From NCBI GenBank assembly GCA_947469485.1, contig CANIPU010000007.1:62001-126000 (forward strand): a DNA stretch of 64,000 bases. The letters run 5' to 3'. The notes under the pieces are model-generated. The model did not search any database. It was not told where the DNA came from and saw only the letters and a program-made list of their open reading frames with translations. Below, piece after piece: positions 2,037 to 24,006 of this stretch. Numbering within the stretch: position 1 is the stretch's first letter; the number at the start of each line of letters is the position of its first letter. Source of the stretch: Chitinophagaceae bacterium. GTDB taxonomy: Bacteria > Bacteroidota > Bacteroidia > Chitinophagales > UBA10324. Position numbers and translations under genes: made by a program.

Positions 2037-2060
2037 ATGCGGAGAGAAAGGGATTCGAAC
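2037..2060. repeat. attL: displaced tRNA-Ser 3' end (24-bp direct repeat)
   Basis: Identical to 23919-23942. It holds the tRNA-Ser acceptor and T-arm 3' portion without the rest of the gene: after base 2060 the sequence departs completely from the tRNA. This is the expected scar of site-specific insertion into a tRNA 3' end. Confidence 0.88.
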
Positions 2061-5966: not shown

Positions 5967-8900
5967 TTATTTTTTCAAAAGCGCTTCTTCCATAACATCT
6001 CTACCCAAAAAATAATCTTCAACAAAATCCCAACGCTCAACCTGCGAAAGTTTTTGTCTAAAGAAATAACTCATTAACTCCATTGAAACATCATGTCTCC
6101 TTTGAACATCACTTATTACTTCATTTTTATATTTAGAATTACTTAGAAAATTAATTTTTTGAGGGTCATTTATACGAATAAATAATTGAGGAAATTTTCC
6201 GCCACTTATTTTATAAGTAGCCAATTCAAAAACTTCAAGTAAGTATGCAACTTTAACTCGGTCACTAATATCACCTTTAGTGATTCTAAAAAAACCTGAG
6301 TATTGTAACCCTTCTATGCCGTCAAAGAGTGCAAGAAATATTCTCATCATTTTCTGGCTCATTTGATTCAGAGCAGTATTTATAACACGGTATTTCTTAT
6401 TCTCTCCTACACCCTTTGACTGTAAAAATTTTAAAGTTTTTGCCGGTTGATTATTTGTAAATATTGAATTCTGAGTTTCGGAATATAGAACAATTAACAA
6501 ATCACTTAATCTTGAAAATATTTTTTCATTAATCAAATTTGCAAAAGGTGAAACCGCTTTTGACTGCAACTGTTCTTTAAACTTATTCACAATCTGTTCT
6601 TTAGAGAAATATCCCCCTAATGAAACAAGGGTTCTTTCAATAAGCAACAAGTAAATTTCAAATTTGCGGCGTGAGGTATTCAGCGATTCAAAAAAATTAA
6701 CTTCAATATTCAATAGAGGATCAATCTCCGGAAAAAGCTCTCGGTTAAAATATTTGTATTTAAGTGAAGGAAAGCTTTCGTTTAAAAAGTGTTTTTCCCA
6801 AATCAGGTCTAGTTTCAATTTGATAAATCTCGAATCATCAGGTTCTTCCCTTAGAATAACAGCACCATTCGCAAGTTTAGTAGTCTTCTTAAAATATGAT
6901 TGCCTTGGAATTTCTTCAACAAAAGAACCAAACTTTTCAACCATGTTTACCAAATCATTTGAAGAAATAGCACCATATACGGTCGTAAATAAACTTTTTG
7001 GACGAACGATTAAAACATTATAACCATACTTTTCTATTAAATCCTTTTCAAGTACAAGTAAAGCACTTTTAACTTTTTGTTCAACTTGATCATCTTTCTT
7101 ATCAGCGAAAATGAATCTGAAATCTTCAATTGAAACCAGCATATTTCTATTTTGCTTCAATTGATATAATTTATTAAGTTTTTGCAAAACAAGCGTTACC
7201 TGATATTGACGAATTGCAGATAAACCATAAAGGGAATTTGCATATTTTAAATCTTTTTCGTTAAAATCAATTATGGCATTCCCTGTCGAATTTGGTTCTC
7301 TTGCCACTCTACCTATTTCTTGAATATAGTCTGATAAACCGCCAGAAGGAGCATGATGATAAACTGTATTTATTCCTTTCACATCAACACCCATTCCAAA
7401 TGCTTTTGTTGCTAAAACAGCAAGAATTCTATTTTCTTTAAATGCAATTAAAGTTGCCTTTCGATTGTCTTTATCAATTTCAGAATGGTAACTTCTAATT
7501 AACGGTTTTATGTTTTCATCACTGTTATATAATACTTCATTAACTTGACTTTTATATGGGAAGTAAGCAATTGATTTAGTCTTTTTCTCAACAAATTTTG
7601 CTATCTGCTCTTTTGTTTTATTTAGCTTGTCCAGATCATGATCTGTAGTAATTAACTTTCGAATATTAAAAAGGATTTCTTCTCGCTTTACCTTTCCTAT
7701 GAAGACTTCGCAATATTCCATATTTAAGCTCTTAATAGTTTCATTTACCATATCATCATTTCCACCATAAACTGCTGTTGCTGTTACAGCAATAACAGGG
7801 AAACGATAAGTTTTTCTTTTGTTACCAGCTAACCCTTTTATTGAACTACCTCGTCTTAATTTTCTAATATAATTTCCAAGGAACCAATAATCAACCCTAA
7901 AATCCCTGCCCCAAGTTGTAACCAAGTGCGCTTCATCAATTACCAATAACCCAATATTTCTTTCACCAATGAATGTTTTTATATCATAAGAAAGTAATAA
8001 TTCAGGTGACATATAAAGCAAACTGACTTCTCCTGATTTTGTTTTTTCAATTATATCTTCTCTTTCAATCAATGATAAATCAGAGTTAAGAAATTCAACT
8101 TTATTAAATTTTCGATCACTTTTAAGGGCTGAAACCTGATCTTCCATTAATGCCTTTAAGGGAGAAACTATTATTGAAACAGGTGAATCTTTCTCGTTCT
8201 CAGAAAGAAAAATTGCAGGGAGTTGAAACAGAAGCGATTTACCTGCGCCTGTTGGTGCGGTCAAAAAAACATCTTTAAATAATTCGGCTTGTTTATCTTT
8301 TTGTTTTTCATTCTTTTGAGCTTTATAATATTGTTGTAAAATGAAATCGACGATTGTTCCCTGTGATATTGAATAGAGGTCGTTATTCCTACTTGGGTTT
8401 TTATATACCAGAAGATTTTTAAATTCTGAATTTTCTCCCCAATGTTTTTTTAAGAGAATATTTAATTCAGCGGTAAATTCTTCAACTAATACAGTTTCAG
8501 TTTTAATTATAGAAACATTGCATCCATTGGAAGAAAGGAGGAATGAAACAATTTTTAACTCATCAACATCAGTTTCTATTTGATGAATGTTTTCATTTAT
8601 AATTAATTTAACTGAGGCAGGAACAGAATTAAAAAAGGTTGAAAACTTTAATTTCAAATACGAATTATCAGATGCTAAAAATTTAATTCCATCGACTTCT
8701 TTTGAAATATCTTTTATTAGCTGAATATCAGGTAATGCATATTCAGCCGGATCAAATAAATCAATAACTTTAATTCCAATTGAAGTTACATCAACTACAT
8801 AATCCAAATACTGAATGCAATCTATTTCTTCAAAAGACTTGCTATTTGAATAAAATTTTTGAAATGTAATATTATCTGGAAGTGGGATATTATTGTCAAC

Positions 8901-9275
8901 ACTATCTTCAGTATCAGGATAAGAAATATCGCTTTGATTCGGATAGTATTCAAAAAAATTATTTTTTATTAATATGAACTCAATTGGGAATTGTTCAATT
9001 GAATGATGAGGCAACAATAAAAATTCTTCGTAAAAAATAAATGAAGTATTCTTTAACTGATTTAACCTTGAACCCAATTCCCAAAAACTATTTTCAACTT
9101 TTTTAAGATCAATTTTAAATTCCAGGAGGCAAGACAAATTCTGGATATGCGGAATTTGATTATGAAGTTCAATACATTCTTTTACAGGGAATCCTTTAAG
9201 AATAAAAACTTTAACTTTACCTTGATTTAAAGCTTCACTTTTGTTGATTATTTTCTTTAAAAGTTGAAGGAACAT
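5967..9275 (-). CDS. RecQ-like superfamily 2 helicase with long unidentified N-terminal region
   Basis: ATP-dependent 3'-5' DNA helicase by homology. The N-terminal 310 residues match no domain I know. The helicase core follows: Walker A TAPTGAGKS near residue 345, DEAH in VIDEAHLVTTWGRDFR near 444 (compare DEAHCISQWGHDF in RecQ), motif III AVTATA, a YHSEIDKDNR segment, then AFGMGVDVKGI and YIQEIGRVARE near 656. The remaining 400 residues show no recognisable RQC zinc site or HRDC domain. At 1102 residues it is much longer than housekeeping RecQ. It is the last gene of the minus-strand operon, 88 bases below the OB-fold gene. A role in unwinding cut or invading DNA is inferred from the neighbours. 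Confidence 0.85.
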   Translation of the reverse strand: MFLQLLKKIINKSEALNQGKVKVFILKGFPVKECIELHNQIPHIQNLSCLLEFKIDLKKVENSFWELGSRLNQLKNTSFIFYEEFLLLPHHSIEQFPIEFILIKNNFFEYYPNQSDISYPDTEDSVDNNIPLPDNITFQKFYSNSKSFEEIDCIQYLDYVVDVTSIGIKVIDLFDPAEYALPDIQLIKDISKEVDGIKFLASDNSYLKLKFSTFFNSVPASVKLIINENIHQIETDVDELKIVSFLLSSNGCNVSIIKTETVLVEEFTAELNILLKKHWGENSEFKNLLVYKNPSRNNDLYSISQGTIVDFILQQYYKAQKNEKQKDKQAELFKDVFLTAPTGAGKSLLFQLPAIFLSENEKDSPVSIIVSPLKALMEDQVSALKSDRKFNKVEFLNSDLSLIEREDIIEKTKSGEVSLLYMSPELLLSYDIKTFIGERNIGLLVIDEAHLVTTWGRDFRVDYWFLGNYIRKLRRGSSIKGLAGNKRKTYRFPVIAVTATAVYGGNDDMVNETIKSLNMEYCEVFIGKVKREEILFNIRKLITTDHDLDKLNKTKEQIAKFVEKKTKSIAYFPYKSQVNEVLYNSDENIKPLIRSYHSEIDKDNRKATLIAFKENRILAVLATKAFGMGVDVKGINTVYHHAPSGGLSDYIQEIGRVAREPNSTGNAIIDFNEKDLKYANSLYGLSAIRQYQVTLVLQKLNKLYQLKQNRNMLVSIEDFRFIFADKKDDQVEQKVKSALLVLEKDLIEKYGYNVLIVRPKSLFTTVYGAISSNDLVNMVEKFGSFVEEIPRQSYFKKTTKLANGAVILREEPDDSRFIKLKLDLIWEKHFLNESFPSLKYKYFNRELFPEIDPLLNIEVNFFESLNTSRRKFEIYLLLIERTLVSLGGYFSKEQIVNKFKEQLQSKAVSPFANLINEKIFSRLSDLLIVLYSETQNSIFTNNQPAKTLKFLQSKGVGENKKYRVINTALNQMSQKMMRIFLALFDGIEGLQYSGFFRITKGDISDRVKVAYLLEVFELATYKISGGKFPQLFIRINDPQKINFLSNSKYKNEVISDVQRRHDVSMELMSYFFRQKLSQVERWDFVEDYFLGRDVMEEALLKK

Positions 9276-9363
9276 ATTGTGAGATATTTAGTAAAAAAAA
9301 TTGTTTACGAAAATAACTATTAATTATAGTAGCATCTTTTAAGCAATTATTTTTCTCTGTTTT

Positions 9364-9720
9364 CTATTCAACTTTTATTTGTTCTTCTGACAGAATAATT
9401 ATCTGTAGTTTCTCTTTGAAAATTGATACCTTACCTGTGATGCAAATATTTTTATCTTTCAAATACTCCGAAGGAGTGTATTTGAATTTAGAAAGGTTGT
9501 CTTCAAAAATTACACCTGTGAAAATTGCATTGGGATATGCTGCGCCGAAACTTAAATAGGTTGTTTTCTTTTCTCCTTTACTTATATAGGCGCTCTGCAC
9601 TTTGGAACAAACTGTAACAGTTTTTCCAACATAGTTTGTTAAGCTGTCAAGCGAAACAGTTTGTGAAAATGAAAGATGCCAAAGGCAAATTGAAGTGATG
9701 AAAAGAAGTAATTTTTTCAT
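9364..9720 (-). CDS. Secreted OB-fold nucleic-acid-binding-like protein
   Basis: Small 118-residue protein with a clear N-terminal signal peptide (residues 1-19, ending near SFSQ, Gln likely first in the mature form). The mature part looks like a single OB fold of the kind found in Bacteroidota exported proteins: YVGKTVTVCSKV, then AYPNAIFTGVIFE, then KNICITGKVSIFKEKLQIII, ending near position 118. These match the five-strand barrel pattern with the 'G.v' turns. It starts 12 bases after xseB and precedes the RecQ-like gene, so it lies inside a run of cytoplasmic DNA-processing genes, which is odd for an exported protein. Binding of extracellular or periplasmic DNA is possible but unproven. 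Confidence 0.7.
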   Translation of the reverse strand: MKKLLLFITSICLWHLSFSQTVSLDSLTNYVGKTVTVCSKVQSAYISKGEKKTTYLSFGAAYPNAIFTGVIFEDNLSKFKYTPSEYLKDKNICITGKVSIFKEKLQIIILSEEQIKVE

Positions 9721-9732
9721 TTTTTATTTTGA

Positions 9733-9945
9733 TTATTGTTTTGGATTTGAATTTTCCATTTGAGCAATGATTTTGTTTACCTCTGTTTCAGTTGATTTCA
9801 GTTTGGTTTGACAGAAAGTAATAAGTTCCGATGCTCTTTTTACTTTGGCAGCCAAAACATCTACTGAAACAGATTCTGTTTCAATGTCATTTGCTATTTG
9901 AGCCAATTCCTGATAGGCGACTTCATAGGTTAAATTCTGTTCCAT
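9733..9945 (-). CDS. xseB: Exodeoxyribonuclease VII small subunit
   Basis: 70-residue, mostly helical protein that binds the XseA subunits to form exonuclease VII, a metal-independent single-strand-specific exonuclease. The family pattern is clear: LTYEVAYQELAQIANDIE at the start, then a long amphipathic helix containing VKRASELITFCQTKLKSTE. The length is normal. The gene overlaps the 3' end of xseA by 23 bases, so translation is probably coupled. It belongs to the element's minus-strand operon rather than to a housekeeping locus. Confidence 0.93.
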   Translation of the reverse strand: MEQNLTYEVAYQELAQIANDIETESVSVDVLAAKVKRASELITFCQTKLKSTETEVNKIIAQMENSNPKQ

Positions 9946-11362
9946 TGTATTTTGATTTATGATTTACTGTTGCTTTAATTTCTGTTTCTGAAAGGATAAT
10001 ATCAATGTCTTTCCCTACCAAAATATTTTCAGGGTTGCTTGTTATTTTGCCGTTGAATTTCACAATTGCAAAACCTTTTTTTAGGATATTAACTGGAGCC
10101 ATCAATTTTATTACTGAACTGTAATGACCTAAGTAACCTCTTTTATTTTTTAAGTATTGAGCATTAAATGTTTTGAGATTACCAACAGTGTTTTTGATGT
10201 CATTTATTCTGTTGTAAAGAATGATTTTGGGCTTTGATAAAATTTGAGTTGAAATATTTACCAATGAATTTCTATGGTTGAAAAGAATTGATTTTGATGT
10301 ATTGATTGTAACTTGATTTATCTGAACTAAACTATCTTTCATTTGGGTTAAAATATTTCTTGTATTGTTCACTATGATGCTGTTCAATGAAGCAAGGGAC
10401 TGAAAGTGAAATGAAAATAGTTGTTGTGATTTTATCACAATGCTTTTCTGATAAGAAAGCATTGCATCTTCATAGGATTTGTTATGAGCAATAATAAATT
10501 CTGCTGCCTTTGTTGGTGTTTTCGTTTGAGTGTTTGCCATTAAGTCAGCGATGGTTTCATTTTTCTGATGCCCTATTCCGGTAATAATGGGAATTGGAAA
10601 TTTTGCAACTGCTCTACCAATATTGTAATTATCAAAAATTAAAAAATCAGTTTGAGCACCACCACCTCTTGTAATCACAACTGCATCATAGGGCTTTTGA
10701 GAATTAAACACTTCAATAATTTTTGATAAAAATTGGTCTGCATTACTTTCTCCTTGAACTACAGTGTAATAATCATCAATATAGAATATGTAACCATAGG
10801 GATTATTAAGTAACGAATGTTTGAAATCCTCTGCCCCTGCTGATGTTTTAGAAGATATTACTGCTATTTTCTGAATTACAATATTGAGTTTTAACTGACT
10901 GTTTTTTGTAAAATATTTTTCTCCTACTTTTCTAATAAAGGTTGGGTTTTCATCTACCAACCTTTGTAATGTTGCTTGTCTTTGTTGTTCTAAAACACCC
11001 AAAGTGAAATTGGGGTCAATGTCATTTATTTCTAATTGCAAACCATATACAGAATGGAATTGCACTTTTACATTTAATAAAACATTGATATTGTTTGCAA
11101 ATTTTTGTCCTGTAATTCTTTCAAAATTTGCAATTTTAGTTGAACCAGAACCCCACGCTTTGCCTGATAGTTTTGCAATAATGTTATTTGAATTTGTGTC
11201 TTTCTCAACTAGTTCAAAGTAGTGATAGTTTGATTGTGATTTGAAAGTATGGTTCGTAACATCTGCAATTACCCAAAAGGTAGCTGAACTAAATGATCTA
11301 TTTATAGCATCATTTATTTTGCTGTTTAGTTCGGATAATCTTATGTGAGTTATTTCTGGCAT
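9923..11362 (-). CDS. xseA: Exodeoxyribonuclease VII large subunit
   Basis: Catalytic subunit of exonuclease VII, degrading single-stranded DNA from both ends to oligonucleotides. Residues 1-110 form the OB-fold DNA-binding domain. The catalytic domain shows AVISSKTSAGAEDF, then VITRGGG near residue 225, PIITGIGHQKNETIADL and TKTPTKAAEFI. A long coiled-coil region (about 300-400) and a C-terminal beta segment (LKKGFAIVKFNGK) follow. In the GH motif the sequence is GIGHQKNET, whereas many family members have GHExD. 479 residues is normal. It starts 39 bases after the restriction subunit, in the same direction, and is probably co-transcribed. Being on a mobile element next to restriction genes, it is unlikely to be the housekeeping copy. 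Confidence 0.93.
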   Translation of the reverse strand: MPEITHIRLSELNSKINDAINRSFSSATFWVIADVTNHTFKSQSNYHYFELVEKDTNSNNIIAKLSGKAWGSGSTKIANFERITGQKFANNINVLLNVKVQFHSVYGLQLEINDIDPNFTLGVLEQQRQATLQRLVDENPTFIRKVGEKYFTKNSQLKLNIVIQKIAVISSKTSAGAEDFKHSLLNNPYGYIFYIDDYYTVVQGESNADQFLSKIIEVFNSQKPYDAVVITRGGGAQTDFLIFDNYNIGRAVAKFPIPIITGIGHQKNETIADLMANTQTKTPTKAAEFIIAHNKSYEDAMLSYQKSIVIKSQQLFSFHFQSLASLNSIIVNNTRNILTQMKDSLVQINQVTINTSKSILFNHRNSLVNISTQILSKPKIILYNRINDIKNTVGNLKTFNAQYLKNKRGYLGHYSSVIKLMAPVNILKKGFAIVKFNGKITSNPENILVGKDIDIILSETEIKATVNHKSKYNGTEFNL

Positions 11363-11401
11363 TAACTATTTTAATTACTAAACACCAAATATTGACCTTG
11401 C

Positions 11402-14400
11402 CTAATGTTTTAATTGATATTCAATTCCAACAATTTCAATTTTATCTCCTGAAGAAATGTTTTCAATTGTAATTACATCAACACTTGGGTTGATTGCAAC
11501 AAGATTGGCATGTATTTCACCAAACAGTTTTGACTTGTTTTTTTTCTCTACTACTTCAACCTTTCTTATTGTGCAATTGCCTTCATACTCGTCTGTAATA
11601 TCTTCACTGTAAACAAGTGCAACTTTTCCGTTTGCTTCTTCAATGTCTTGTGTGTGGTTTAATATTACCCAAGAGTCATGCTGATACGAAGGTGAAAGGG
11701 CTTGCCCTTTTGCCTGAGTAGTAAAAATTGACGAAGGCAATTTTTGTGTGTTGCTTTCTAAAAACAACCAACCGTCAGGTTTGGGTGTTTTCTGTTGTTT
11801 AATGAATTTGCGATATGCTTTTTCAGGTGAGTATGCAGGAATGTATTTGATAAATTTTTCTTCCTCTTTCGGGTCTGAAATTAGTTGGTCTCTTGATTGC
11901 TGCCTTGTCAATGTTTCTTCTGATTCCTTTATGAAATTATCCCATGCCAAATAATCAGTTCCCATTTTTTCCATTTGAGAAGAAAACACAAGCAAACCTT
12001 TGAACCCTTTTATTGTTCCTTCTCCTGGGACTTCATCTAATCTTTTCAGCAAGGCATTTTTCTTTGTGTCTGAAAAAACTTCTCCTTTTGTTTCAATTAC
12101 ATATATCCAATCATCCTTGAAAAGAATAAAGTCCGGGTAATATTTTTTTGAACCGTAATTGAAATAAATATTGCGTTGGTTACGAATCCAAAATGGTTTT
12201 TTCTCTTTGGCAACTTTCTTCAAAACATCATCAGCATATTCAGCCAATTGCATTTCGGTGAAGGAATCAAATTTTTCATAATCGTAAATTGATTTTTCAT
12301 AGCCGTAAAAATTGTATTGGCTTTCAATCAACTCAATAAATTTTTGTTTGTCCTTTACCTTAAACCGCATTTTGTTTTCTATCTGGTCTTCGGGTAATTT
12401 CAATTCATAATCGTGGAACTCTTTCTTCAAACTCCAACTATCTTCATCATTCAATTTGTGAAAGTCAAGAATGAAATAATCCTTTTCAATTTTATTTCTG
12501 TAGTAGAAGCTGAAAGCATCTACAAATAATTTCAAAGCAAGTTTTTCATCTGCATCATCTAATTTGTAAAACTGTAAGCCAATAGAATTGAAAGTATCTA
12601 TGTAGTCCCGGAATGCCTTCTTTGTTGTTTCTGTATCAGGTAAGCAAGGCAGGTTCTTTTGAACTATGCCGTAAACTTGCTTCAATTCCTTTTCGGAAAT
12701 GTGCAAGGTTGTTGGCTTACCGCCTTTCTCTTTTATCTGTTTGTGATATACATTCTTGTCAGAAAAAATATCTACCTCTAAAAAGAATTGTTCCGGTCTG
12801 TATTTAAGAAATCTTTTTGCTGTGTCATTTTCCCCTTCAAAACAATTGTCCTCTGTGAATTTTGTTGTTATGCCCTGAACATTTGTAATCAATGACATCA
12901 AATTGACATCTTGTTTTGCTTTGAGGTCTGCCCTTATGTGTGGAATGTATTTGCCTGTGAGTAGGTCTGATTTTGCTTTATTCATTAAGGGTTTGCGAAC
13001 CTTATCAAAGCTGAGATATTTGTTATTCAAACCAAACTCTTGTTGTATTGCTTCAATAACTTCTTGAAAGTTTTTCCCTTGGTCACAAACAATGTGTAGT
13101 TTTTCTGCGTTGGCTTTTAAAGCATCTTTTTCATCATCAAACTCCCTCTTGTCTTTATTCAACCTTACTCCTCTACCAATGATTTGTTTTACAGAAGTTT
13201 TAAAATCTGTTTCGGTATCATTGATAACTGCCATTGAAAAAATATTAGGCAAATCAATTCCTTCATCAAGGCGTTGCATGTAAACAACAATTTCAACATT
13301 ATTCTTTCTGATGTTGTTGAATTTCTTTTCGGTTTCTTTATCAGAATTTCCGTAATAGAAAATTGATGTGTCTGCAACCCTCTGTATTTCTTCTCTTAGT
13401 AATTTGATTTTGCCCTGATATTTTTTCTTGTATAGGTCAATCAGCAGCGTTGTTATTTCAAGTTCCTGTGCTTTTACTTTTTCTAAAATGATGTTGATGT
13501 TATCTACATCATTTGCCAATTCGGTTTTGATGTAATCAAAAACTTTTTGAGTGTAGATTGTATCGTTCTTAACCTTTACAAATGCAACTGGTTTTAAGTT
13601 CTTACTCTTTGGGTCTAAAAGCACTGCTTCTTTTTTCAGCAGGTGAATTAGAAACAAAGTGATAAGTTTTAATTTTTCATTATTGCTTACTTCTGTTTGT
13701 CTGCCCTTGTTTCCAGTAGCCAATGCAACTGCCCTTACTAATTTACCATGACCATCTTCTAAAAATCTTCTTATGTCATACTTGTAAATGATGGTTTGAT
13801 TTTTCTTTTCAAGTCCTTTTTCATTTTCAATTGCCGTTGCCGTAAATTCTAATACGGCAGAAGGATGAAAGTTGCGAATGATTTTTGAAGCAACTCTTGT
13901 TTGTGCATGGTGGGCTTCATCAGTAATGATGATTAACTTTTTTTCTTTGAGAAACTGTTTTATGCTGATGTTGTTTCCCTTATCATCTTGCCATATTGCT
14001 GACTCCCATGTAAGTTCTGTATTGGTTGCAGTTCCACCAAACTTACTAATGTTGAAAATGAAAATGTTTGCATCCTTACTGGAATCAAAAAACAAATTCT
14101 GTGAGTAGTTGTCGCCTGTAATCAGATTGAAAGTAAAAGGTGTATCGTCTGCCCAAACTGATTCAAAGTTGCCTACCTGAAAGTTGCGAATTGTTTTTTG
14201 ATAAATGTCTGTTGATGCCGGGGTAATGATTAGGAAATTGTTGATGTCGTATTTCTGACTGAGAAAATAAATGCTTGCACCCATCAGCATAGTTTTACCT
14301 GAGCCGGTTGCCATTTCGTAACTTAAAAAAGGTGCTGTGGTTTTATTTTCTTCATCAACAATTTCAAGCAAATCTTTTTTCTCTTTTTTGTTTTCGTTGC

Positions 14401-14614
14401 ACTTTAAAAGATAGTCCAACATATACAAAGCATCCATTTGATAATACCGTAGCGGATGTTTTGTAATTCCGTTTTCAATGGTATTGAAAATGGCAAAATC
14501 ACTTGTTGCAAACAAGTTTTGAGAAGATGCACTTTCTCTATATGTCTGAACAACATTGTTAAGCAACTTACTGTGCTTTTCAAAATATGTAGTTGGTTCT
14601 TTCTTTTTTGCCAT
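11402..14614 (-). CDS. Type III restriction subunit (Res) with extra C-terminal S24-like domain
   Basis: Helicase/translocase and nuclease subunit that, with Mod, cuts DNA carrying unmodified sites. The superfamily 2 motor shows Walker A ATGSGKT near residue 105, TDEAHHAQT near 231, EFTATA, and QIIGRGVRLNKD. The PD-(D/E)XK nuclease is visible as YYPDFILFKDDWIYVIETKG near residues 825-842. After it, residues about 925-1070 look like an added domain: TTQAKGQALSPSYQHDSWVI and GKVALVYSEDI follow the spacing of the LexA/S24 peptidase fold, but the usual catalytic Ser of GxSMxP is not present. At 1070 residues it is longer than usual Res proteins, consistent with a fusion. It starts 3 bases after the mod stop codon. 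Confidence 0.9.
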   Translation of the reverse strand: MAKKKEPTTYFEKHSKLLNNVVQTYRESASSQNLFATSDFAIFNTIENGITKHPLRYYQMDALYMLDYLLKCNENKKEKKDLLEIVDEENKTTAPFLSYEMATGSGKTMLMGASIYFLSQKYDINNFLIITPASTDIYQKTIRNFQVGNFESVWADDTPFTFNLITGDNYSQNLFFDSSKDANIFIFNISKFGGTATNTELTWESAIWQDDKGNNISIKQFLKEKKLIIITDEAHHAQTRVASKIIRNFHPSAVLEFTATAIENEKGLEKKNQTIIYKYDIRRFLEDGHGKLVRAVALATGNKGRQTEVSNNEKLKLITLFLIHLLKKEAVLLDPKSKNLKPVAFVKVKNDTIYTQKVFDYIKTELANDVDNINIILEKVKAQELEITTLLIDLYKKKYQGKIKLLREEIQRVADTSIFYYGNSDKETEKKFNNIRKNNVEIVVYMQRLDEGIDLPNIFSMAVINDTETDFKTSVKQIIGRGVRLNKDKREFDDEKDALKANAEKLHIVCDQGKNFQEVIEAIQQEFGLNNKYLSFDKVRKPLMNKAKSDLLTGKYIPHIRADLKAKQDVNLMSLITNVQGITTKFTEDNCFEGENDTAKRFLKYRPEQFFLEVDIFSDKNVYHKQIKEKGGKPTTLHISEKELKQVYGIVQKNLPCLPDTETTKKAFRDYIDTFNSIGLQFYKLDDADEKLALKLFVDAFSFYYRNKIEKDYFILDFHKLNDEDSWSLKKEFHDYELKLPEDQIENKMRFKVKDKQKFIELIESQYNFYGYEKSIYDYEKFDSFTEMQLAEYADDVLKKVAKEKKPFWIRNQRNIYFNYGSKKYYPDFILFKDDWIYVIETKGEVFSDTKKNALLKRLDEVPGEGTIKGFKGLLVFSSQMEKMGTDYLAWDNFIKESEETLTRQQSRDQLISDPKEEEKFIKYIPAYSPEKAYRKFIKQQKTPKPDGWLFLESNTQKLPSSIFTTQAKGQALSPSYQHDSWVILNHTQDIEEANGKVALVYSEDITDEYEGNCTIRKVEVVEKKNKSKLFGEIHANLVAINPSVDVITIENISSGDKIEIVGIEYQLKH

Positions 14615-14617
14615 TGT

Positions 14618-16585
14618 TTATTTTTCTAATTCAGCGAATATTGCATAAGGAACTTTTATTACTTCAAGGTCATCGGGTTTTGAATCATAAGCAATTTCAA
14701 TCCCTCTGTTGGTGAAAATATTTATGTATTCAGGTGCGTATTTTTTCCTCACTGTTTTACAAAGCAATTGCAATTCATCATAAGTGATGTTGACTAATTT
14801 CCCTGATGGTTCATTGAGGGTTACAATTGCAACACGATTTTTTGAACCTAATTTTTGAACACCAACCAAAGGTTGGTTTTCTTTATCTGAAAAAAGTTTG
14901 TCTGCTGAAAAATCAATAGAGTTGTCAATTGTATAGTCATAAGAAAGGAGAAAAGATTCTTCAAGAAATTTTTTCCCTAATGACCAATTAAAATCACCTG
15001 TTCCTTCCTTATTAATTTTAATTATTGAAGGTCCTATATGATAGTATTTGAATGAGCCACCACCACGCCAATTAACCGCTTTGCTGATTCCCGTTTGGTC
15101 TGACCCATCAATTACACCTTTCATTCTTTCTAAAATGTGTGTGTCTGAATGCTTGCCAACTTCAGCACCAACCCATTTTCTTTTTAACTTATGTGCAACT
15201 GCAAATGAAGTTCCTGAACCACCGAAGATGTCAAGAATATAATCACCTTCATCAGTAGCAAATTCAAATAATCTTTTCATTAACTGTTCCGGCTTCTTAC
15301 TTCGTTTAAGTTCAACACCACCTTCGTTTGCAAGGTCTGCTTTTGGAATATCACCATGCAGCCAGATTGTGCTCATTTTATTTGACTTCACAATTGAATT
15401 TCCATCAATGAATGCAGAATCTTTTAGCCATGCAAAAATCTCCTTATTGTTGTAGTAAATGGTTGTCAGTTTGTCTTTGTATTTACCTCTGCTTGGAGTG
15501 TATTCTACTGAAAACAAACCTCCATCCATTCTTGAGATTAAGTCATTTTGAAATTCATTTTCAGCTTGTGGGTTTGTAGTTCTAAAAATTGAACTGAAAT
15601 TTTTATAAAAGTCCGCATAGATTTCTTTTTTACGATTTTCAAAATCACGCAACGAAATAGATGCGATGTTATATTCAGAATGCTTATAAATTTTGACTGG
15701 AAGATTATTTGACTTTGAATTGAACTCTTCTACCAATTCTTTGGAACCGTAGTTCGTAAGAACTTTATTGTAGCGTTTCATTGTTTCATATTCCAATGGT
15801 TCGTTTTGCAGCAGTTCATTGTAAGTGAATTGCTGTGCATCCTTACAATAAATTAAAATGTATTCTGCTGTATTTAAAAATACACCACCTTGTCCAATAC
15901 CTGCTGCACCTGACCTTTCATAACAAATTTGATTAACAAAGTTTTTCCTTCCGAATATTTCATCAAGTAATACTTTTAAATAATGGTGTTCAATATCATC
16001 AACTTGAACAATTATACAACCATCTTCACGAATCATTTCATAAGTAATTGCTAACCTATCCCTCATCATTGTAAGCCACTCAGAATGCTCCAAACTGTCA
16101 TCATAATGTTTAAATGCTTGGTCTGTGTTGTATGGAACATCATAATAAACACACTTGAATTTTGGGAAATCAGAAAGTGTATCTATAATTTTTTTAATTG
16201 CATTTAATGCAAGTAAATTATCCCCTTTAATAAAAAAATTATCTACTGGTTCTTTTTCTTTTTTGCTCTGCTCTAATTCAAAAAATGTTTGAGTGCCAGG
16301 TATTGTTCCTTCTTTATTTTTTTCAATTGCCCTGAATACATTTTGCAGTAATAGAGGTCTTGCTTCTTTTACACGAATATCATTTCTGTTTACCCAATAT
16401 GGAGAAAGGCCACGACCTTCATCATCAATAATTTCATAAAATAATGCTTCGTCTTTGTTTACCCAATTCATCTTTGGTGCAGGAGTTGATTCCGCAGAAA
16501 GTATTTCTGATTCTTTTGCAATTAAAATTGCTCTTTGTTTGTTATACCACTCTAATTGAAGTGAACCTGTATATGTTTTTGCCAT
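14618..16585 (-). CDS. Type III DNA methyltransferase (Mod), beta-class adenine methylase
   Basis: Recognition and modification subunit of the type III system, transferring a methyl group from S-adenosylmethionine to adenine N6 by family. Motif order is that of beta-class enzymes: catalytic motif IV first, then the target-recognition region (about 200-420), then the SAM-binding motif DIFGGSGTSFAVAHKL. Motif IV at residues 149-152 reads DVPY in YYDVPYNTDQAFKHY, not the standard DPPY. Other family blocks are clear: LQLEWYNKQ near the N-terminus, FIKGDNLLALNAI, EHSEWLTMMRDRL and GRKNFVNQI. The 655 residues are normal. It starts 9 bases after the helicase-nuclease gene and is followed 3 bases later by Res. 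No repeat tract occurs inside the gene. Confidence 0.93.
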   Translation of the reverse strand: MAKTYTGSLQLEWYNKQRAILIAKESEILSAESTPAPKMNWVNKDEALFYEIIDDEGRGLSPYWVNRNDIRVKEARPLLLQNVFRAIEKNKEGTIPGTQTFFELEQSKKEKEPVDNFFIKGDNLLALNAIKKIIDTLSDFPKFKCVYYDVPYNTDQAFKHYDDSLEHSEWLTMMRDRLAITYEMIREDGCIIVQVDDIEHHYLKVLLDEIFGRKNFVNQICYERSGAAGIGQGGVFLNTAEYILIYCKDAQQFTYNELLQNEPLEYETMKRYNKVLTNYGSKELVEEFNSKSNNLPVKIYKHSEYNIASISLRDFENRKKEIYADFYKNFSSIFRTTNPQAENEFQNDLISRMDGGLFSVEYTPSRGKYKDKLTTIYYNNKEIFAWLKDSAFIDGNSIVKSNKMSTIWLHGDIPKADLANEGGVELKRSKKPEQLMKRLFEFATDEGDYILDIFGGSGTSFAVAHKLKRKWVGAEVGKHSDTHILERMKGVIDGSDQTGISKAVNWRGGGSFKYYHIGPSIIKINKEGTGDFNWSLGKKFLEESFLLSYDYTIDNSIDFSADKLFSDKENQPLVGVQKLGSKNRVAIVTLNEPSGKLVNITYDELQLLCKTVRKKYAPEYINIFTNRGIEIAYDSKPDDLEVIKVPYAIFAELEK

Positions 16586-16594
16586 AATTTATTT

Positions 16595-19306
16595 TCAGTT
16601 AGTTTTTTTGAATCTGCAAACACAATCTTCTTTGTTGCAGGTGTGTTCAAGGTTGTTGTTTCTAATGTCGTTTGCTGCTGCAATGATTTTGTTTTTTATT
16701 CCTTCAAGGTCATTTGCTGTTAGTTCGTTTTTGTAACCTTCATTTGTGTCAAGGTTGTATATCTGTAAGAAGTCAGCATTTTCTCCTGTCAAGGCACGAT
16801 AACCCAATGCGTAAAGCTGCAACTGGTCAATGGTTGCACTGTATGCCTGTGAATCTTCTGTTGATTTGAAATCAACTATTGTTTTTTCAAAAGTGCCATC
16901 AAAATTTTTCTTTTTGATTAAGTCCATTTTGCCACTTACTAAAATACCTTCTCCTAAGTCAAGTTGTATTTGCTTTTCAGCAAATTCAATTTGATTGAAC
17001 TCGGGTGAATTTTTATCATAATAAATATTCACTGCGGTGTCTGCCTTTGTTGTCATGGCGGCAGTTATCTTTTCCGTTGCATAAGGAAAATTAGTGTGCC
17101 TGTTTAAAAGCGTTTCTAATTCTGTTTTTGCAATTTCATTTCCGTCAAGATATTCTCTATGCAATTCCATCAGTGTATTGTGTATTGCAGAACCATAACC
17201 CATTCTTGCACCCAATGGAGATTGAAAACCATAGAATGTATAAAACTTGAAACTGTAAGGACAATCAAAAAATGATTTCAGCAATGAGAAAGTGAGTGAA
17301 ATATTTGATAAGTCCAAAAATGGTTTTGGTGTGCCGTGTTCTCTTTCTGCATAATTGCGGTTTGGTGAAATAATTACATAGTCAGATGCTCTTACTTCAT
17401 TTCCAAAAATTGATTCATTGCCTTGCTGCCTTCCATCGGGGGCACGGCTCATTAGAAGGAATTTTTTTGCCCTTGTGATTGCTACATACATTAACCTTCT
17501 TTCATCTTCCGGTCTTGGAAAATATCTTTCAACTCCTCTGATTAAAGTTCTTTCAATGAAATGCCAAACTTGTTTTCCTGATGGTTGTTTTGAAGGCAAA
17601 TAATTTTTATTCAGTCCCGGAATAAACACTACTGGAAACTCCAACCCTTTTGCTTGGTAGATAGTCATTATCTGCACTGCGTTTGGAGTTTTGTAAGTGT
17701 TGTTTTGCCAACCTTCGGGATAGTAGTCGGCTGCTGAATAAAGTAAGAAACTTAGAAAGGTTGAAAGTTTTCTGTCGGGTGGATATGTGAAGTAAATTGT
17801 TTCAAAATCATTTATGATTTGACTGAACATACCAAGGTTGTAAAAAATTATTTCTTCGTTGCTGAACCCTGTTACTTCTGCTGCTTCATCAGAAAAAAGG
17901 TCTTCACGGATTCCTGCTTTGTCAAGGAATGTTTGAAAGATTACTTGAATGTTGAATCTTTCGTAGTAGGTGTTTTTGTTGGGTTTGTTCTTATCAAGAA
18001 AAGCAATTGCATCATTTAGTTTTTCCTCTGTTACATTGTCGCTAAGTGATAGCCAATGATGTTTCAATGTTTCTTTGTCAAGCTGTGCATTGAGATACAT
18101 AAAGATTGCCTTTGATGCACCTACTTCATGCCGTTGGAATAAATTATTTACACCTGAAACAATGAAAGGAATTTGTGCTGCTTGCAGTGCTTCAATTATT
18201 GCATCTGCTTTTTTCCATTTACGGACAAGTATGACAAAGTCAGAATAGTCAAGCCCCCTGTGTTCTAATTCGGGTTTGTCTTGAAATAATGTACCTCTTA
18301 AATTGCGAATAGAATTTACAATGTTTTCATTTTCTTCTTCAACTGTGTTGAACTGGTTGTAAAGAATATCGCCTTTCTCATAGGTCTGAAAACCCTTTGC
18401 AACCATTTGTTTTGGTAGTCGTGCTGAATTGTTGGTGATGACTTTCAAGGCAACATCTACAATTGCTTTTGAACTTCGGAAGTTATCGTTCAAGATAACT
18501 TCTTTTACATTGTTGTATCGTTCTTTGAAGTGTTGTATGTAATCAATATCACTACCACGCCACTGAAAAATTGTTTGGTCATCATCTCCTACAACACAAG
18601 TGTTTGCACCTAATTCGTAAAGCTCCCTAACCAATGCTTCTTGAATTGGGTTGACATCCTGATACTCGTCAACTATTAAATAGCCAATGTTGTTTTTGAT
18701 TTTATTGCGAAAGGCATCATCATTTTTTATGTGATGAAATGCCTTTGTCATAATCATTGTAAAGTCAAGGTAGCAGCTTTGTTGAAGTGTTTTTTCATAT
18801 TGTTCTAATGCTGTGAAAAGGTCTGCCGGAACATCTTCACGATTATGAAAATCTGCTTCACGAAGTATTCCCATTAACTGAATGAAATGCCCTGTGTCCT
18901 TAAACCTATCCATATCAAGGGCTTTCATTCCAATGGTTGAAAACTTTCTTTCAACAAAAAGTTTTAGCTTGATTTCATCAAGCACTGAAAACTTTTGAAA
19001 TTCATATTTGTAATCCTGTAAAACATTTAAGCACCAAGCATGTATTGTTCCGATATACATTTCTGAAAGCCCTTTCAAATCGGGTAATTGCTCACGGCAA
19101 AGTTTTAAGATTCTTGCCTGTAATTCTCCTGCTGCTTTTTCGGTGTAGGTGAACGCAATTACTTTTGAAGGTGGTGTGCCTTGTTTCAGTATGTTGATGA
19201 TGCGTTCTGAAATAACTTGGGTCTTGCCTGAACCAGCACAAGCGATGATAAGAAGGTTCTTATCAAGCGTATTCATTGCATTAATCTGTTCAGGTGTGTA
19301 TTTCAT
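16595..19306 (-). CDS. UvrD-like superfamily 1 helicase fused to RecB/AddB-type nuclease
   Basis: 903-residue DNA helicase-nuclease. Motor motifs: Walker A ACAGSGKT near residue 25, VDEYQDVNPIQ, VVGDDDQTIFQWRGSD, YQAKGLEFPVVFIPG, and RRLMYVAITRAKK. The C-terminal part (from about 670) is a PD-(D/E)XK domain of the RecB/AddB kind: YGSAIHNTL supplies the His, GKMDLI the Asp near 792, VDFKS the Asp-x-Lys near 812. A Cys in FFDCPYSFKF (about 681) and three at the extreme C-terminus (CNKEDCVC) match the arrangement that holds a 4Fe-4S cluster in AddB-like nucleases. Its start overlaps the regulator's stop by 4 bases. It probably degrades DNA ends made by the restriction enzyme, an inference from context. 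Confidence 0.92.
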   Translation of the reverse strand: MKYTPEQINAMNTLDKNLLIIACAGSGKTQVISERIINILKQGTPPSKVIAFTYTEKAAGELQARILKLCREQLPDLKGLSEMYIGTIHAWCLNVLQDYKYEFQKFSVLDEIKLKLFVERKFSTIGMKALDMDRFKDTGHFIQLMGILREADFHNREDVPADLFTALEQYEKTLQQSCYLDFTMIMTKAFHHIKNDDAFRNKIKNNIGYLIVDEYQDVNPIQEALVRELYELGANTCVVGDDDQTIFQWRGSDIDYIQHFKERYNNVKEVILNDNFRSSKAIVDVALKVITNNSARLPKQMVAKGFQTYEKGDILYNQFNTVEEENENIVNSIRNLRGTLFQDKPELEHRGLDYSDFVILVRKWKKADAIIEALQAAQIPFIVSGVNNLFQRHEVGASKAIFMYLNAQLDKETLKHHWLSLSDNVTEEKLNDAIAFLDKNKPNKNTYYERFNIQVIFQTFLDKAGIREDLFSDEAAEVTGFSNEEIIFYNLGMFSQIINDFETIYFTYPPDRKLSTFLSFLLYSAADYYPEGWQNNTYKTPNAVQIMTIYQAKGLEFPVVFIPGLNKNYLPSKQPSGKQVWHFIERTLIRGVERYFPRPEDERRLMYVAITRAKKFLLMSRAPDGRQQGNESIFGNEVRASDYVIISPNRNYAEREHGTPKPFLDLSNISLTFSLLKSFFDCPYSFKFYTFYGFQSPLGARMGYGSAIHNTLMELHREYLDGNEIAKTELETLLNRHTNFPYATEKITAAMTTKADTAVNIYYDKNSPEFNQIEFAEKQIQLDLGEGILVSGKMDLIKKKNFDGTFEKTIVDFKSTEDSQAYSATIDQLQLYALGYRALTGENADFLQIYNLDTNEGYKNELTANDLEGIKNKIIAAANDIRNNNLEHTCNKEDCVCRFKKTN

Positions 19307-19629
19307 TTCTTGTTCAAATTGTTTTTATAATACTTAATTTCTTTTAGTGCTTGCTTCAAAACAACAGAGCCAAAAATTTCATGAGCTAATTCTAATAAAA
19401 TTTTTTCACTAAGAAACTTTATAACTAATTTTCTTTCACTGGTTTTATATAGCAATGCAAATTTGGGGAGTAGCTTTCTGCTGATATTTCTTTCACCTCT
19501 TTCCATCTTGCTGAGAATGGCAATGTCAATGCGCAAATGAGCGGCAGCGAGTGTTAGCGAGATTTTTTTTCTCATGCGAAGATTGCGAAGCAATGCGCCA
19601 AGAGAAATGTTTTCAGATTGGTTTGACAC
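19303..19629 (-). CDS. Xre-family HTH regulator of the restriction operon
   Basis: 108-residue DNA-binding protein. The N-terminal 65 residues are a Cro/C1-type HTH: LGALLRNLRMRKKISLTLAA, AHLRIDIAILSKMERGERNIS, RKLLPKFALLY. The rest is helical and may be a dimerisation tail. The start is GTG at 19629; an in-frame stop lies just upstream and no ATG is available. The GTG lies within a perfect 17-bp palindrome, which suggests that the protein represses its own operon. It is first in the run that leads, through a 4-base overlap, into the helicase-nuclease gene, so it fits the role of a controller protein of restriction systems. Confidence 0.85.
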   Translation of the reverse strand: MSNQSENISLGALLRNLRMRKKISLTLAAAHLRIDIAILSKMERGERNISRKLLPKFALLYKTSERKLVIKFLSEKILLELAHEIFGSVVLKQALKEIKYYKNNLNKK

Positions 19630-19816: not shown

Positions 19817-21139
19817 TTATTCGGGCAAATCTGTTTCCATTCGAAACCTTGACTGATAACCAGCTAACTCTACATCTTTCAACTTCATAGCATAGATCCA
19901 TCTGTTTTTGCGTTTCAGGCGATGAAACTTATTCTTCTTCAAAGCCCTACCCAATTTGTTTACCATTGAATCAGTGATATTCAAATTTGCTTTCTCTGCA
20001 AGAGCAGTTGCAATTGCGGTGGCGGAAAGAAAAAGGGTGCATCCTTCTACTTCTGCCGGTTCGTAATTAGAAAGTAATAATTCTTCTTCAACTGATACCA
20101 CACTATACTGTTCGTTGTTTGCAGAAATCTTTTCAATCTCTTCCTGGTCGAACCAAAACTTAAACTCTTTCGATTTGAAAAGGTGATATGCCTGAGCATA
20201 AACCTTACTCAAATCAATTTCGTGATTGAAATTTATTTCAAGCGATTCAAAGCAAAGGAATCTTCTGGAACCCGTGGTGTCATTGAGGAATTGTTTACTG
20301 TTAACCGAGCCAGCGAATGAAGCGCGGCGAGGCAGGTTCTCATTGTTAATCCCATATGGACGGCGAATGCGAATTCCGTTTTTGGTAATCAATTCTTTCA
20401 AGCTCCCGATTTCGGATTTGTTCAGGTTTTCCAATTCGTCAAGGTTAATCAACATGCACTCGGAGAGCTGAATGATTGTATCCTTATTGTTCGGATTAAT
20501 AGTACCTGAGAACTTGTAAGTTTTCAGTTGATCAGGAATAAGGTTGAGCATCCAAGTTGTTTTACCTACACCCTGCTTACCTGAAAAAACAATCACAGTG
20601 TGATTGATTGTTTCATCGTCGAGAGCGCAAGCGACCATTGCTACTAACCATTTTTTGAAGCAAGCTTGCCAAAGCTCATCGTCGTTGGTTTTTACAGTAG
20701 CAGCGAGAGCTGCGATATGGTCTGTTTGGCCATCCCATTCCGGTAATGAGTTGAAGTATTCAACGAATGGGTCGTAAACTTCGGAGAAGTTGGAGTTCAG
20801 CAACGAACGAAGTGAAGTGCTGTAAGCTCCAATTTTGTTTTTCTGCAGTTCACGAAGAATAGAATTAGCAATGTAATCCGATAGGATTATATACTTACTC
20901 TCTTCTTTGAATTTGTATTCTATCTGCCCTATTACTTTGTTGTAACGGAAATCGAATCGCTTGTTGAGGTGCGCCTCCATGATGTCAATGTTGGAATGGC
21001 TCATTTCTGATTCTGTTTCAGGCAGCCGCTCTACCGGGGCTGCTTCTGAAATTACCTCCGCTACAGCGGGAATTATCTTTGTATCTAATAGTAAAATCTC
21101 TAATGGAGATTCCGGTTTTAATAAATTAGCTTGTTGCAT
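19817..21139 (-). CDS. VapE-type (virulence-associated E) replication ATPase
   Basis: 440-residue P-loop protein of the VapE family, found in satellites, prophages and islands and related to the primase/helicase replication initiators of staphylococcal pathogenicity islands. Residues 50-160 contain the family lead-in with DPFVEYFNSLPEWDGQ. The ATPase has Walker A FSGKQGVGKTTW near residue 188, Walker B-like MLINLDEL, the RIRRPYG segment, and RASFAGSVNSKQFLNDTTGSRRFL. A C-terminal winged-helix-like segment follows. I see no zinc-binding primase domain, so priming may depend on the host. The start overlaps the 3' end of the KilAC gene by 14 bases. It probably replicates the excised element. Confidence 0.85.
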   Translation of the reverse strand: MQQANLLKPESPLEILLLDTKIIPAVAEVISEAAPVERLPETESEMSHSNIDIMEAHLNKRFDFRYNKVIGQIEYKFKEESKYIILSDYIANSILRELQKNKIGAYSTSLRSLLNSNFSEVYDPFVEYFNSLPEWDGQTDHIAALAATVKTNDDELWQACFKKWLVAMVACALDDETINHTVIVFSGKQGVGKTTWMLNLIPDQLKTYKFSGTINPNNKDTIIQLSECMLINLDELENLNKSEIGSLKELITKNGIRIRRPYGINNENLPRRASFAGSVNSKQFLNDTTGSRRFLCFESLEINFNHEIDLSKVYAQAYHLFKSKEFKFWFDQEEIEKISANNEQYSVVSVEEELLLSNYEPAEVEGCTLFLSATAIATALAEKANLNITDSMVNKLGRALKKNKFHRLKRKNRWIYAMKLKDVELAGYQSRFRMETDLPE

Positions 21140-21455
21140 AATTGCCTTGGTTGTTAGTTAATAATTGTTTGATGTATTCCATTCCTTTTAATGAAACCAG
21201 TGTAACAGTTTGGACAAACAAGATTTGACCATAGCTGTTAGTAATATCCTTAATCACATACTTAAAATATCCTCTGTCAATAAATTGTTGATATGGTTCA
21301 TTAGAACCATTAATCACTTGGTTATCTCTCAGGAATTTGAATAGCTTCGTGCGCCCAATTCCATTGACACTAATAATCTTGGCTGTTTCCTTCATGTCAT
21401 ACCAATTCTCTCCTTGCGGGTGTCCCGCTGTCGTTATTTTGTTTACTTGAATCAT
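21126..21455 (-). CDS. KilAC-domain phage antirepressor-like protein
   Basis: 109 residues matching the C-terminal KilAC/ANT domain of phage antirepressors: WYDMKETAKIISVNGIGRTK, then LFKFLRDNQVINGSNEPYQQ, then FIDRGYFKYVIKD, and TLVSLKGMEYIKQLL. The N-terminal module often fused to this domain (BRO, Rha or pRha) is missing, so this is a stand-alone C-terminal type. Its start overlaps the upstream HTH gene by 4 bases and its end overlaps the VapE gene by 14 bases, giving a tight regulator-replicase unit. In phages such proteins influence the lysis/lysogeny decision; here it may respond to a helper phage or to stress, which is inferred. Confidence 0.82.
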   Translation of the reverse strand: MIQVNKITTAGHPQGENWYDMKETAKIISVNGIGRTKLFKFLRDNQVINGSNEPYQQFIDRGYFKYVIKDITNSYGQILFVQTVTLVSLKGMEYIKQLLTNNQGNYATS

Positions 21456-21733
21456 AGATTCACTTTTTTGTTAAAATGCTTCATCATCATTTGTTCGATG
21501 TCGCTGAGTTTATAAAATAATTTAGAACCAATCTTGGAGTGCGGAAGTATGCCGCGGTCTCTCCACTCTTGCCCGGTTCGGGGGCTGATTTTCAGTAATC
21601 TGATTAAATCTGAGTTGTCAATATACTGAAAATTCTTCTCGTACTGTTCGCCGTCCTTCGGCATCAAACTAATTATGTGTTCCAGCTTAATTAATACCTG
21701 CTGGAGAAGGTTTTCTATTTCCAAATTGACCAT
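21452..21733 (-). CDS. Small HTH protein (MerR/HTH_17-type, excisionase-like)
   Basis: 93 residues. The C-terminal 55 residues form a winged helix-turn-helix of the kind in excisionases: DLIRLLKISPRTGQEWRDRG, ILPHSKIGSKLFYKLSDIEQ. The N-terminal 35 residues are a helical leader (LLQQVLIKLEHIISLMPKDG). Related in layout to the next upstream gene, with which it may share ancestry. It overlaps the KilAC gene by 4 bases. It could be an excisionase or a regulator of the replication genes; the sequence does not separate the two. Confidence 0.78.
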   Translation of the reverse strand: MVNLEIENLLQQVLIKLEHIISLMPKDGEQYEKNFQYIDNSDLIRLLKISPRTGQEWRDRGILPHSKIGSKLFYKLSDIEQMMMKHFNKKVNL

Positions 21734-22415: not shown

Positions 22416-23648
22416 TTAAGCAATTTTCAAGATTTTGTTTTTCATTCTTGACTTTAACCCTTGCATTTCATCAGACACGCGACTGTCCATCATGCGCGCA
22501 TAAATTTTTGTGGTGTTCATGTTTGAGTGAGCGAGCATTTTGCTTACTGCTTCCAAACTGATGCCATTTGCAAGTGTAACGGTTGTGGCGAAAGTATGCC
22601 GGGCAAGGTGTGAAGAAATATTTTTATTGATTTCACATAAGTCACCAATCTCTTTTAAGTAAGCGTTCATCTTTTGATTACTGAGAACAGGAAGCAAGAC
22701 ACCTTTATTGATGCACATCGGATTTTCTTTGTACCTGTTCAAAATTTTCAGTGCTTCGGGAAGCAATGGAACATTCACATTTGAATTTGTTTTCGTGCGG
22801 TGTGTGCTTATCCAAAGCTCACCATCCGCACCTTTAACAATGTGTTCCGGTTTTAATTTATTGACATCAGCATAAGCCAAACCAGTGTAACACTGAAAAA
22901 GAAAAGCATCTTTAACCTGCTGCATTCTAGGAATGGAAAAAGTTTTCGCTGCGAGTTTGTCTAATTCTTCTTGTGTTAAATATCCGCGGTCAACTTTTTT
23001 CAACTTGGGTTTGTAATTCAAGAATGGGTCCCGAAGCAACCAACCATTCGCAATAGCAATGCGAATAATTTTCTTGAAGTTCTTTATGTATTTGATGGTG
23101 GTGTTGTTCGCACACTTGCGAACTGAGCGCAGATAGTAATCAAGCTCAGTGATGAACTCATTATCTATATCACACAAAAAGAAATCTGATTTATTGTAAC
23201 GCGACAAAACGAATGCACGCAAGTGATGTAAGCATGTTGTATATCTATCTAAAGTTCCGGCTGCGAAATCCTGACCGACTAATGATTTTACTTTCGCGTT
23301 GTGGTCTTCGAATATTGCAAACAAACTTTTTGACTTGGTAGAAATACCGAGGTAAGAATTTTTTATCGCCTCTGCTGTAACAGTTTTGTTTGCATCTTCC
23401 AACATGCGATGATGGTCATAAATTTTTGTGCGCACTGTATCAATATAAGTATTGATGCTTTTGAATTCCTCGCTTGAACCTTTGATGATTTCATTTCCGG
23501 GAACCCATCTTTCAATTGGTGCTTCTCGCTTGATTGCAAGTTCACTTCTCTTTCCGTCAACTGTGATTCTACAATAAATGGGAGCATTGCCCAGGCTGTC
23601 TGCCTTGTCTTTTCTGATGTAGAACAGAATGTTTAAATTTTTTACCAT
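22416..23648 (-). CDS. Tyrosine-type integrase of the element
   Basis: 410-residue site-specific recombinase that would insert and excise the element at tRNA-Ser. The arm-binding domain is at the N-terminus (LFYIRKDKADSLGNAPIYCR), followed by a SAM-like core-binding domain (about 110-210) and the catalytic domain. Catalytic residues visible are His-x-x-Arg in SHLARHTFATT, His in MLAHSNMNTTK and the Tyr nucleophile in KIYARM. The first catalytic Arg is absent: the site reads CYTGLAYADV, as in many Bacteroidota integrases of the IntDOT type. The start lies about 270 bases from the tRNA, and that gap holds several AGGTATC motifs likely to be bound by its N-terminal domain. Confidence 0.95.
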   Translation of the reverse strand: MVKNLNILFYIRKDKADSLGNAPIYCRITVDGKRSELAIKREAPIERWVPGNEIIKGSSEEFKSINTYIDTVRTKIYDHHRMLEDANKTVTAEAIKNSYLGISTKSKSLFAIFEDHNAKVKSLVGQDFAAGTLDRYTTCLHHLRAFVLSRYNKSDFFLCDIDNEFITELDYYLRSVRKCANNTTIKYIKNFKKIIRIAIANGWLLRDPFLNYKPKLKKVDRGYLTQEELDKLAAKTFSIPRMQQVKDAFLFQCYTGLAYADVNKLKPEHIVKGADGELWISTHRTKTNSNVNVPLLPEALKILNRYKENPMCINKGVLLPVLSNQKMNAYLKEIGDLCEINKNISSHLARHTFATTVTLANGISLEAVSKMLAHSNMNTTKIYARMMDSRVSDEMQGLKSRMKNKILKIA

Positions 23649-23918: not shown

Positions 23919-23942
23919 ATGCGGAGAGAAAGGGATTCGAAC
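23919..23942. repeat. attR: 24-bp direct repeat within the tRNA-Ser 3' end
   Basis: Identical to 2037-2060. It covers the acceptor stem and T-arm 3' part of the intact tRNA-Ser. Insertion therefore kept the tRNA functional, with its 3' end supplied by the element. Confidence 0.88.
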
Positions 23943-24006
23943 CCCTGGAACATTGCTGTTCAACGGTTTTCAAGACCGCCGCTATCGACCGCTCAGCCAT
24001 CTCTCC
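23922..24006 (-). tRNA. tRNA-Ser (anticodon TGA)
   Basis: 85-nt tRNA on the minus strand. The 7-bp acceptor stem pairs GGAGAGA with TCTCTCC; discriminator base G follows and the CCA end is not encoded. The anticodon loop is CTTGAAA with anticodon TGA, closed by a stem of GCGGT with ACCGT-type pairing. An extended variable arm, typical of serine tRNAs, follows, then the T arm with GGTTCGAATCC. The 3' end is the integration site of the element. Confidence 0.95.

Follow-up and report, generated by a model that had tools for sequence, protein, structure and literature searches.

Why should the two subunits of exonuclease VII, an enzyme that degrades single-stranded DNA and is often counted as housekeeping, lie inside a restriction operon on a mobile element? 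The question is raised by a window of 64,000 nucleotides (the whole stretch of DNA that was analyzed) from a Chitinophagaceae bacterium (assembly GCA_947469485.1, contig CANIPU010000007.1, positions 62,001–126,000), and a literature search of open-licence papers returned no report of exonuclease VII inside a restriction operon. Once DNA has been cleaved by restriction, its further fate usually depends on nucleases of the host, such as RecBCD. If the reading that we favor below is correct, some elements carry their own disposal step, in the form of a single-stranded DNA exonuclease that travels with restriction, Argonaute, and Gabija genes.

The genes lie on a tRNA-Ser island and are the only copy in the genome

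The two genes are carried by a 21.9-kb island bounded by 24-bp direct repeats that match the 3′ end of tRNA-Ser. The left att repeat, ATGCGGAGAGAAAGGGATTCGAAC, occupies 2037–2060 (plus strand), and the right repeat (23919–23942, plus strand) falls within the 3′ part of the tRNA-Ser (TGA) gene, the integration target, which ARAGORN places at 23921–24006 on the minus strand. The island encodes a 410-aa tyrosine integrase (22416–23648; PF00589, PF13102, PF17293) and, as further backbone, an HTH_17 protein (21452–21733), a KilAC-domain protein (21126–21455), and a VapE-like primase/helicase (19817–21139; PF05272), all on the minus strand. At four congeners (G002–G005) the site is empty and both flanks adjoin, as seen in alignments for G004 and G003; the stretch examined in G004 has a single att/tRNA copy. 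An integrase, an att repeat derived from a tRNA 3′ end, and an empty site in relatives mark this region as a tRNA-integrated genomic island, and with them the original prediction that xseA and xseB are element-borne and sit within a restriction operon is supported.

The fifth congener, G001, has an island with the same backbone (98% protein identity for the integrase, 97% for the KilAC protein, 94% for VapE, and 89% for HTH_17) and a left end with 94% DNA identity, but its cargo is different. Its UvrD-nuclease is only 31% identical to that of the island studied here, and a search of the G001 genome with the window XseA gave no match. Since the backbone is shared while xseA has no match and the UvrD-nuclease has diverged, the xseAB cargo is exchangeable. 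On G001 contigs C1 and C3 (loci L200, L201, and L204) the same tRNA-Ser repeat is present, and the middle of the cargo lies beyond the contig ends.

Are these genes a backup for a housekeeping pair, as had been suggested? They are not, since PF02601 and PF02609 each match a single place in the host genome (3.08 Mb, completeness 100%). It had also been proposed that a special role would be unlikely if this were the only xseAB in the genome. The pair is indeed the only one, but this does not refute a special role, because all five congeners searched lack close homologues, and four of them have an empty site. With the window XseA as query, a match was found in 16 of 61 genomes, including the window's own, and in none of the five congeners. 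Although often regarded as housekeeping, exonuclease VII has a patchy distribution across the order, with PF02601 matching about half of 199 genomes (101 with any match, 93 above the cut-off) and only borderline in G001 (E = 8e-4), G002, and G005; in this host it arrives only on the island. The sole island copy therefore represents a gain by the element and not a displaced housekeeping gene. The host also encodes proteins that are RecJ-like and AddB-like by family and length, so trimming of single-stranded DNA may already be covered.

An eight-gene run with a type III-like core

Eight minus-strand genes follow one another in the island, with little space between them. The run opens with a 108-aa helix-turn-helix regulator (19303–19629; PF13560/PF01381), followed by a 903-aa UvrD-type helicase fused to a PD-(D/E)XK nuclease (16595–19306; PF00580, PF13361, PF12705), a 655-aa type III-like Mod DNA methyltransferase (14618–16585; PF01555, 122 bits; PADLOC MTase_III, 313 bits, 9e-94), and a 1070-aa Res-like restriction subunit (11402–14614; PF04851, 81 bits). 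Next come XseA and XseB, a 118-aa protein with no family match (9364–9720), and, as the final long gene, a 1102-aa RecQ/DpdF-like DEAH helicase (5967–9275; PF00270, PF00271; PADLOC C3a193, 602.6 bits, and DpdF, 199 bits). The 118-aa protein has a signal-peptide-like start, which is unexpected within a cytoplasmic DNA system.

The motifs of Mod (DVPYNTD and FGGSGT) and of Res (Walker A GSGKT104–108, DEAH232, and nuclease PD828...E841-T-K843) are intact. The pair has the sequence features expected of a type III system, namely a Mod with a methyltransferase domain and a Res with an SF2 helicase and a PD-(D/E)XK nuclease, and in the same order as in type III restriction-modification. It differs from such systems in that Res matches PADLOC REase_III weakly (36 bits) and in that the run adds the UvrD-nuclease, XseAB, and the RecQ-like helicase. 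We infer co-transcription from spacing only, because matches to a promoter consensus are not evidence: a scan of 9200–11700 gave eight promoter-like sites against a shuffled mean of 11.6, and this caution extends to one 10-of-12 match at 11466–11439, close to the end of Res.

How often does this arrangement recur? The nearest homologue of Res, in G254, is the one true homologue among 299 genomes of the order; there was none among 395 genomes of the phylum at E ≤ 1e-40 and none in the plasmids or viral contigs searched. As Res has a homologue in only one of these collections, recurrence of the exact operon could not be demonstrated. The G254 locus (contig C50) also carries a UvrD-nuclease, Mod, and Res (66%, 46%, and 55–56% identity, respectively) with a RecQ/DpdF-like helicase downstream, but a 337-aa gene there separates UvrD from Mod, and the Res-to-helicase interval lacks xseAB. 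XseAB is thus not required by that system, and the G254 locus suggests that it would be at most an optional enhancement.

XseA and XseB belong to the exonuclease VII family

The gene for the large subunit, xseA (479 aa; 9923–11362, minus strand), starts 39 bp after Res and shares 23 bp (9923–9945) with xseB, which encodes the 70-aa small subunit (9733–9945, minus strand), exactly as originally described. The overlap is not a special feature of the island, being ordinary in the clade: it is exactly 23 bp in 33 of the roughly 67 members with a measurable overlap, including chromosomal copies. Judged against the curated cut-offs of Pfam and NCBIfam, XseA scores 234.5 bits with TIGR00237 (cut-off 180) and 199.7 bits with PF02601 (cut-off 35.9), and XseB, the paired small subunit, scores 47.6 bits with TIGR01280 (cut-off 35) and 47.1 bits with PF02609 (cut-off 24). 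By family membership, then, XseA and XseB are a genuine exonuclease VII from a mobile Bacteroidota lineage, with predicted single-stranded DNA exonuclease activity.

The AlphaFold model of XseA (mean pLDDT 85) has the domain order of exonuclease VII, with an OB domain, a catalytic domain, a long coiled coil, and a C-terminal β part, and its pTM of 0.47 leaves the global arrangement uncertain. The best PDB match in Foldseek is E. coli ExoVII (8txr, the structure of the H238A protein; E = 1e-23), at TM-scores of 0.30–0.46; we ascribe these low values to the long coiled coil, and the global arrangement is not to be trusted. The two enzymes share both subunits, the domain layout, and the equivalents of E. 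coli D155, R205, and H238, which align with D179, R232, and H265 of the island protein; D155A is a published catalytic-domain mutant of the E. coli enzyme (PMC11077951). They differ in that the island XseA is 18% identical to its counterpart (Foldseek), about 25 residues longer, and island-borne, and has asparagine (N268) where E. coli has D241.

This asparagine lies within the motif GIGHQKNET (residues 262–270), which had been noted as unusual and as a possible sign of a distinct branch. D241 is important in E. coli ExoVII and is not a curated requirement of the family. Asparagine occupies the position in 94 of 124 sampled XseA sequences, mostly from Bacteroidota, in three types of motif that include GHDRN and GHATN. 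For this reason N268 was not counted as excluding XseA identity; the catalytic rate is uncertain given N268, common as the residue is in Bacteroidota. A distinct branch does exist: sequences with GIGH(Q)KN form a clade of Bacteroidota (support 99, a starred branch), but it is not specific to elements, as chromosomal singletons make up most of it. GIGHQKNET is ruled out as a marker of element-borne copies, since the 94 sequences with asparagine include other groups.

What might exonuclease VII do behind Res? We tentatively favor, at a little short of an even chance, the reading that XseAB was recruited to clean up single-stranded DNA made by the helicases and nucleases of the operon. Mod would mark host DNA and Res would cut unmarked incoming DNA, from whose cut ends the UvrD-nuclease and the RecQ-like helicase would unwind. 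XseAB could then attack the resulting single strands at either end and reduce them to oligonucleotides, which would keep restricted DNA from being re-annealed, recombined, or repaired. The joint action and the defense role of the run are what we infer here, and that XseAB would digest what Res, the UvrD-nuclease, and the RecQ-like helicase leave single-stranded is suggested by analogy with E. coli, in which RecJ and ExoVII trim the unwound 5′ strand in recD and recB1080 mutants, whose RecBCD variants are nuclease-deficient (PMC5592934).

Could xseAB instead be a neutral or weakly useful passenger that reached its site behind Res by recombination among islands? Such a history would fit the different cargo on the G001 backbone, the absence of xseAB next to Res in G254, and the rarity of the GIGHQKN lineage, which strict cut-offs recover in 11 and 13 of 395 genomes. 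We regard it as improbable, as both frames are intact and the invariant D179, R232, and H265 are retained.

Relatives of the island XseA adjoin restriction and defense genes in several lineages

If XseAB disposes of attacked DNA, with what other systems does it travel? A contig scan yielded the best 80 relatives of the island XseA. The majority are chromosomal and present once, in Flavobacterium, Pedobacter, and Chitinophaga, and their local surroundings are often conserved; about 11 of the 87 loci of the clade are defense-linked by labels assigned by hand from family hits, after the neighbors were seen. Samples of the phylum and class added members, again mostly chromosomal singletons, one of them (G850, 74% identity) near a C5 DNA methylase; as some genomes are shared (e.g., L220 and L165), these samples and the contig scan are not independent. 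The viral contigs searched contained no XseA; phages and plasmids do have homologues that are more distant. UvrD matches in Flavobacterium loci were judged from convergent position and length to be ordinary chromosomal UvrD.

At the nearest named relative (L108, 79% identity), xseA shares 13 bp with a Piwi/Argonaute gene. On a plasmid of Chryseobacterium sp. SNU WT5 (L084; NZ_CP041688), an XseAB that belongs to this clade and is 52% identical lies 32 bp behind HsdR; this locus differs from ours in being type I rather than type III and on a plasmid rather than a tRNA island. Elsewhere, xseA follows the final gene of a Pycsar locus by 175 bp (L083), comes shortly after a type ISP enzyme, from which a 102-aa frame separates it (L116), trails a YhcG-type nuclease by about 90 bp (L151), or follows an HsdR/PIF1-like/AAA_15 run that also has a c120 gene (L173), and at L165 xseAB directly precedes GajA-GajB at 2–3 bp. 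The neighbors at L115 are AAA_15, c120, and PIF1-like genes, and those at L112 and L113, which have the weakest defense labels, are helicases or nucleases.

Several of these loci have further features of their own. At L108 (285–11621) a ResIII/RE_endonuc protein, a 1606-aa AAA_12 protein with a sacsin-like domain, a Piwi-domain protein, and XseA-XseB are encoded in one direction, and the set may represent an Argonaute operon equipped with an exonuclease. Another recurring neighbor of xseAB, at L115, L173, L112, and L140, is a PIF1/RecD-like helicase of about 450 aa (PADLOC PDC-M16A in L173), which is accompanied at L115 and L173 by AAA_15 and an unannotated protein of 329–343 aa. The xseA of the same clade at L229 (G492:C1:4464328–4465739) is split into two frames, perhaps through decay or a frameshift.

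The distribution of these copies was followed on a careful tree of 48 rows, with 11 defense-labeled copies, and on a quick tree of 124 rows. The defense label requires six changes on the 48-row tree, five of them forced by starred branches, and the same six on the 124-row tree. Shuffled labels require a mean of 10–10.7 changes and were as low as six in 0–1 of 500 shuffles; for the 48-row tree the mean is 10.0, with 1 of 500 as low. This result is to be weighed against the fact that the labels were set by hand after the neighbors were seen. A single clade of defense-linked copies appeared in 0% of bootstrap trees. It had been envisioned that element- and defense-borne copies would either form a clade of their own or mix at random with housekeeping copies, and the tree agrees with neither outcome: at least five changes are forced, and random labels almost never cluster as tightly. 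One subclade of six (L116, L083, L084, L112, L113, and L115; support 100/99) is wholly defense-linked by the hand labels, and the window XseA groups with L108 and three others at 82/86, below the star threshold. The lineage was thus placed beside restriction or defense genes at least five times, in the company of type III, type I, and type ISP systems, Argonaute, Gabija, and a YhcG-type nuclease. The clustering of the label also argues against a mere passenger.

Since relatives were placed beside other anti-phage systems several separate times, XseAB may be a tool that elements carry with them to clean up attacked DNA. In a broader version of this idea, a single mobile lineage of ExoVII could serve Bacteroidota defense loci as an interchangeable add-on, directly adjoining systems of different mechanism (type I, III, and ISP restriction, Argonaute, and Gabija) and reducing unwound invader DNA to oligonucleotides; this is conceivable, though we think it rather unlikely.

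Other relatives lie near DNA repair, SOS, and toxin genes

A different set of neighbors points to repair. A DnaE2-like polymerase lies within 10 kb of 15 of the 87 clade loci, usually together with a Y-family polymerase and AlkB, relaxase or coupling-protein genes are present at 6–7 of the 87, and on two Chryseobacterium plasmids an SRAP (SOS-associated) gene is nearby. Some distantly related plasmid xseAB genes of Acinetobacter and Pseudomonas adjoin or lie near UmuDC or Y-family polymerase genes, and others are without them. Because relatives lie near SOS polymerase, AlkB, relaxase, and SRAP genes, the clean-up reading has a serious competitor in a mobile repair module. XseAB would then be a portable means of tolerating DNA damage, removing trapped gyrase and trimming single-stranded DNA in mismatch repair or recombination, and its place behind Res would be positional only. 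Consistent with this, loss of ExoVII renders E. coli and V. cholerae sensitive to quinolones (PMC4437897; PMC12004951), and ExoVII removes trapped gyrase complexes (PMC12004951). Yet the SOS-linked Flavobacterium copies are largely one lineage, no SOS gene was seen in the island run, and xseAB has come to lie immediately beside Res, HsdR, type ISP, pAgo, or GajA repeatedly, in separate lineages. We consider damage tolerance a real possibility, although the less probable of the two, and retain the clean-up of restricted DNA as our preferred reading.

Within Flavobacterium, L151, L109, L146, and other loci have xseAB of the same clade near a DnaE2-like polymerase, a Y-family polymerase, AlkB, and a LexA-like HTH-S24 protein, and some of these also carry MobC, a relaxase, and a type IV coupling protein.

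Finally, could the two subunits form an abortive-infection pair, in which XseA is a toxin that is restrained by XseB and freed on infection? XseA-mediated cell death in E. coli was reportedly described by Jung and colleagues in 2015 (Jung et al. 2015, cited in PMC8989520), and HipA toxin-like genes lie 143–160 bp upstream of xseA at two loci (L111:1920–3224 and L140:8856–9836). This reading seems to us highly improbable, as chromosomal copies have the same xseA/xseB overlap and no sensor or trigger was identified. On an Acinetobacter plasmid (L086), xseA and a HipA gene are divergently oriented.
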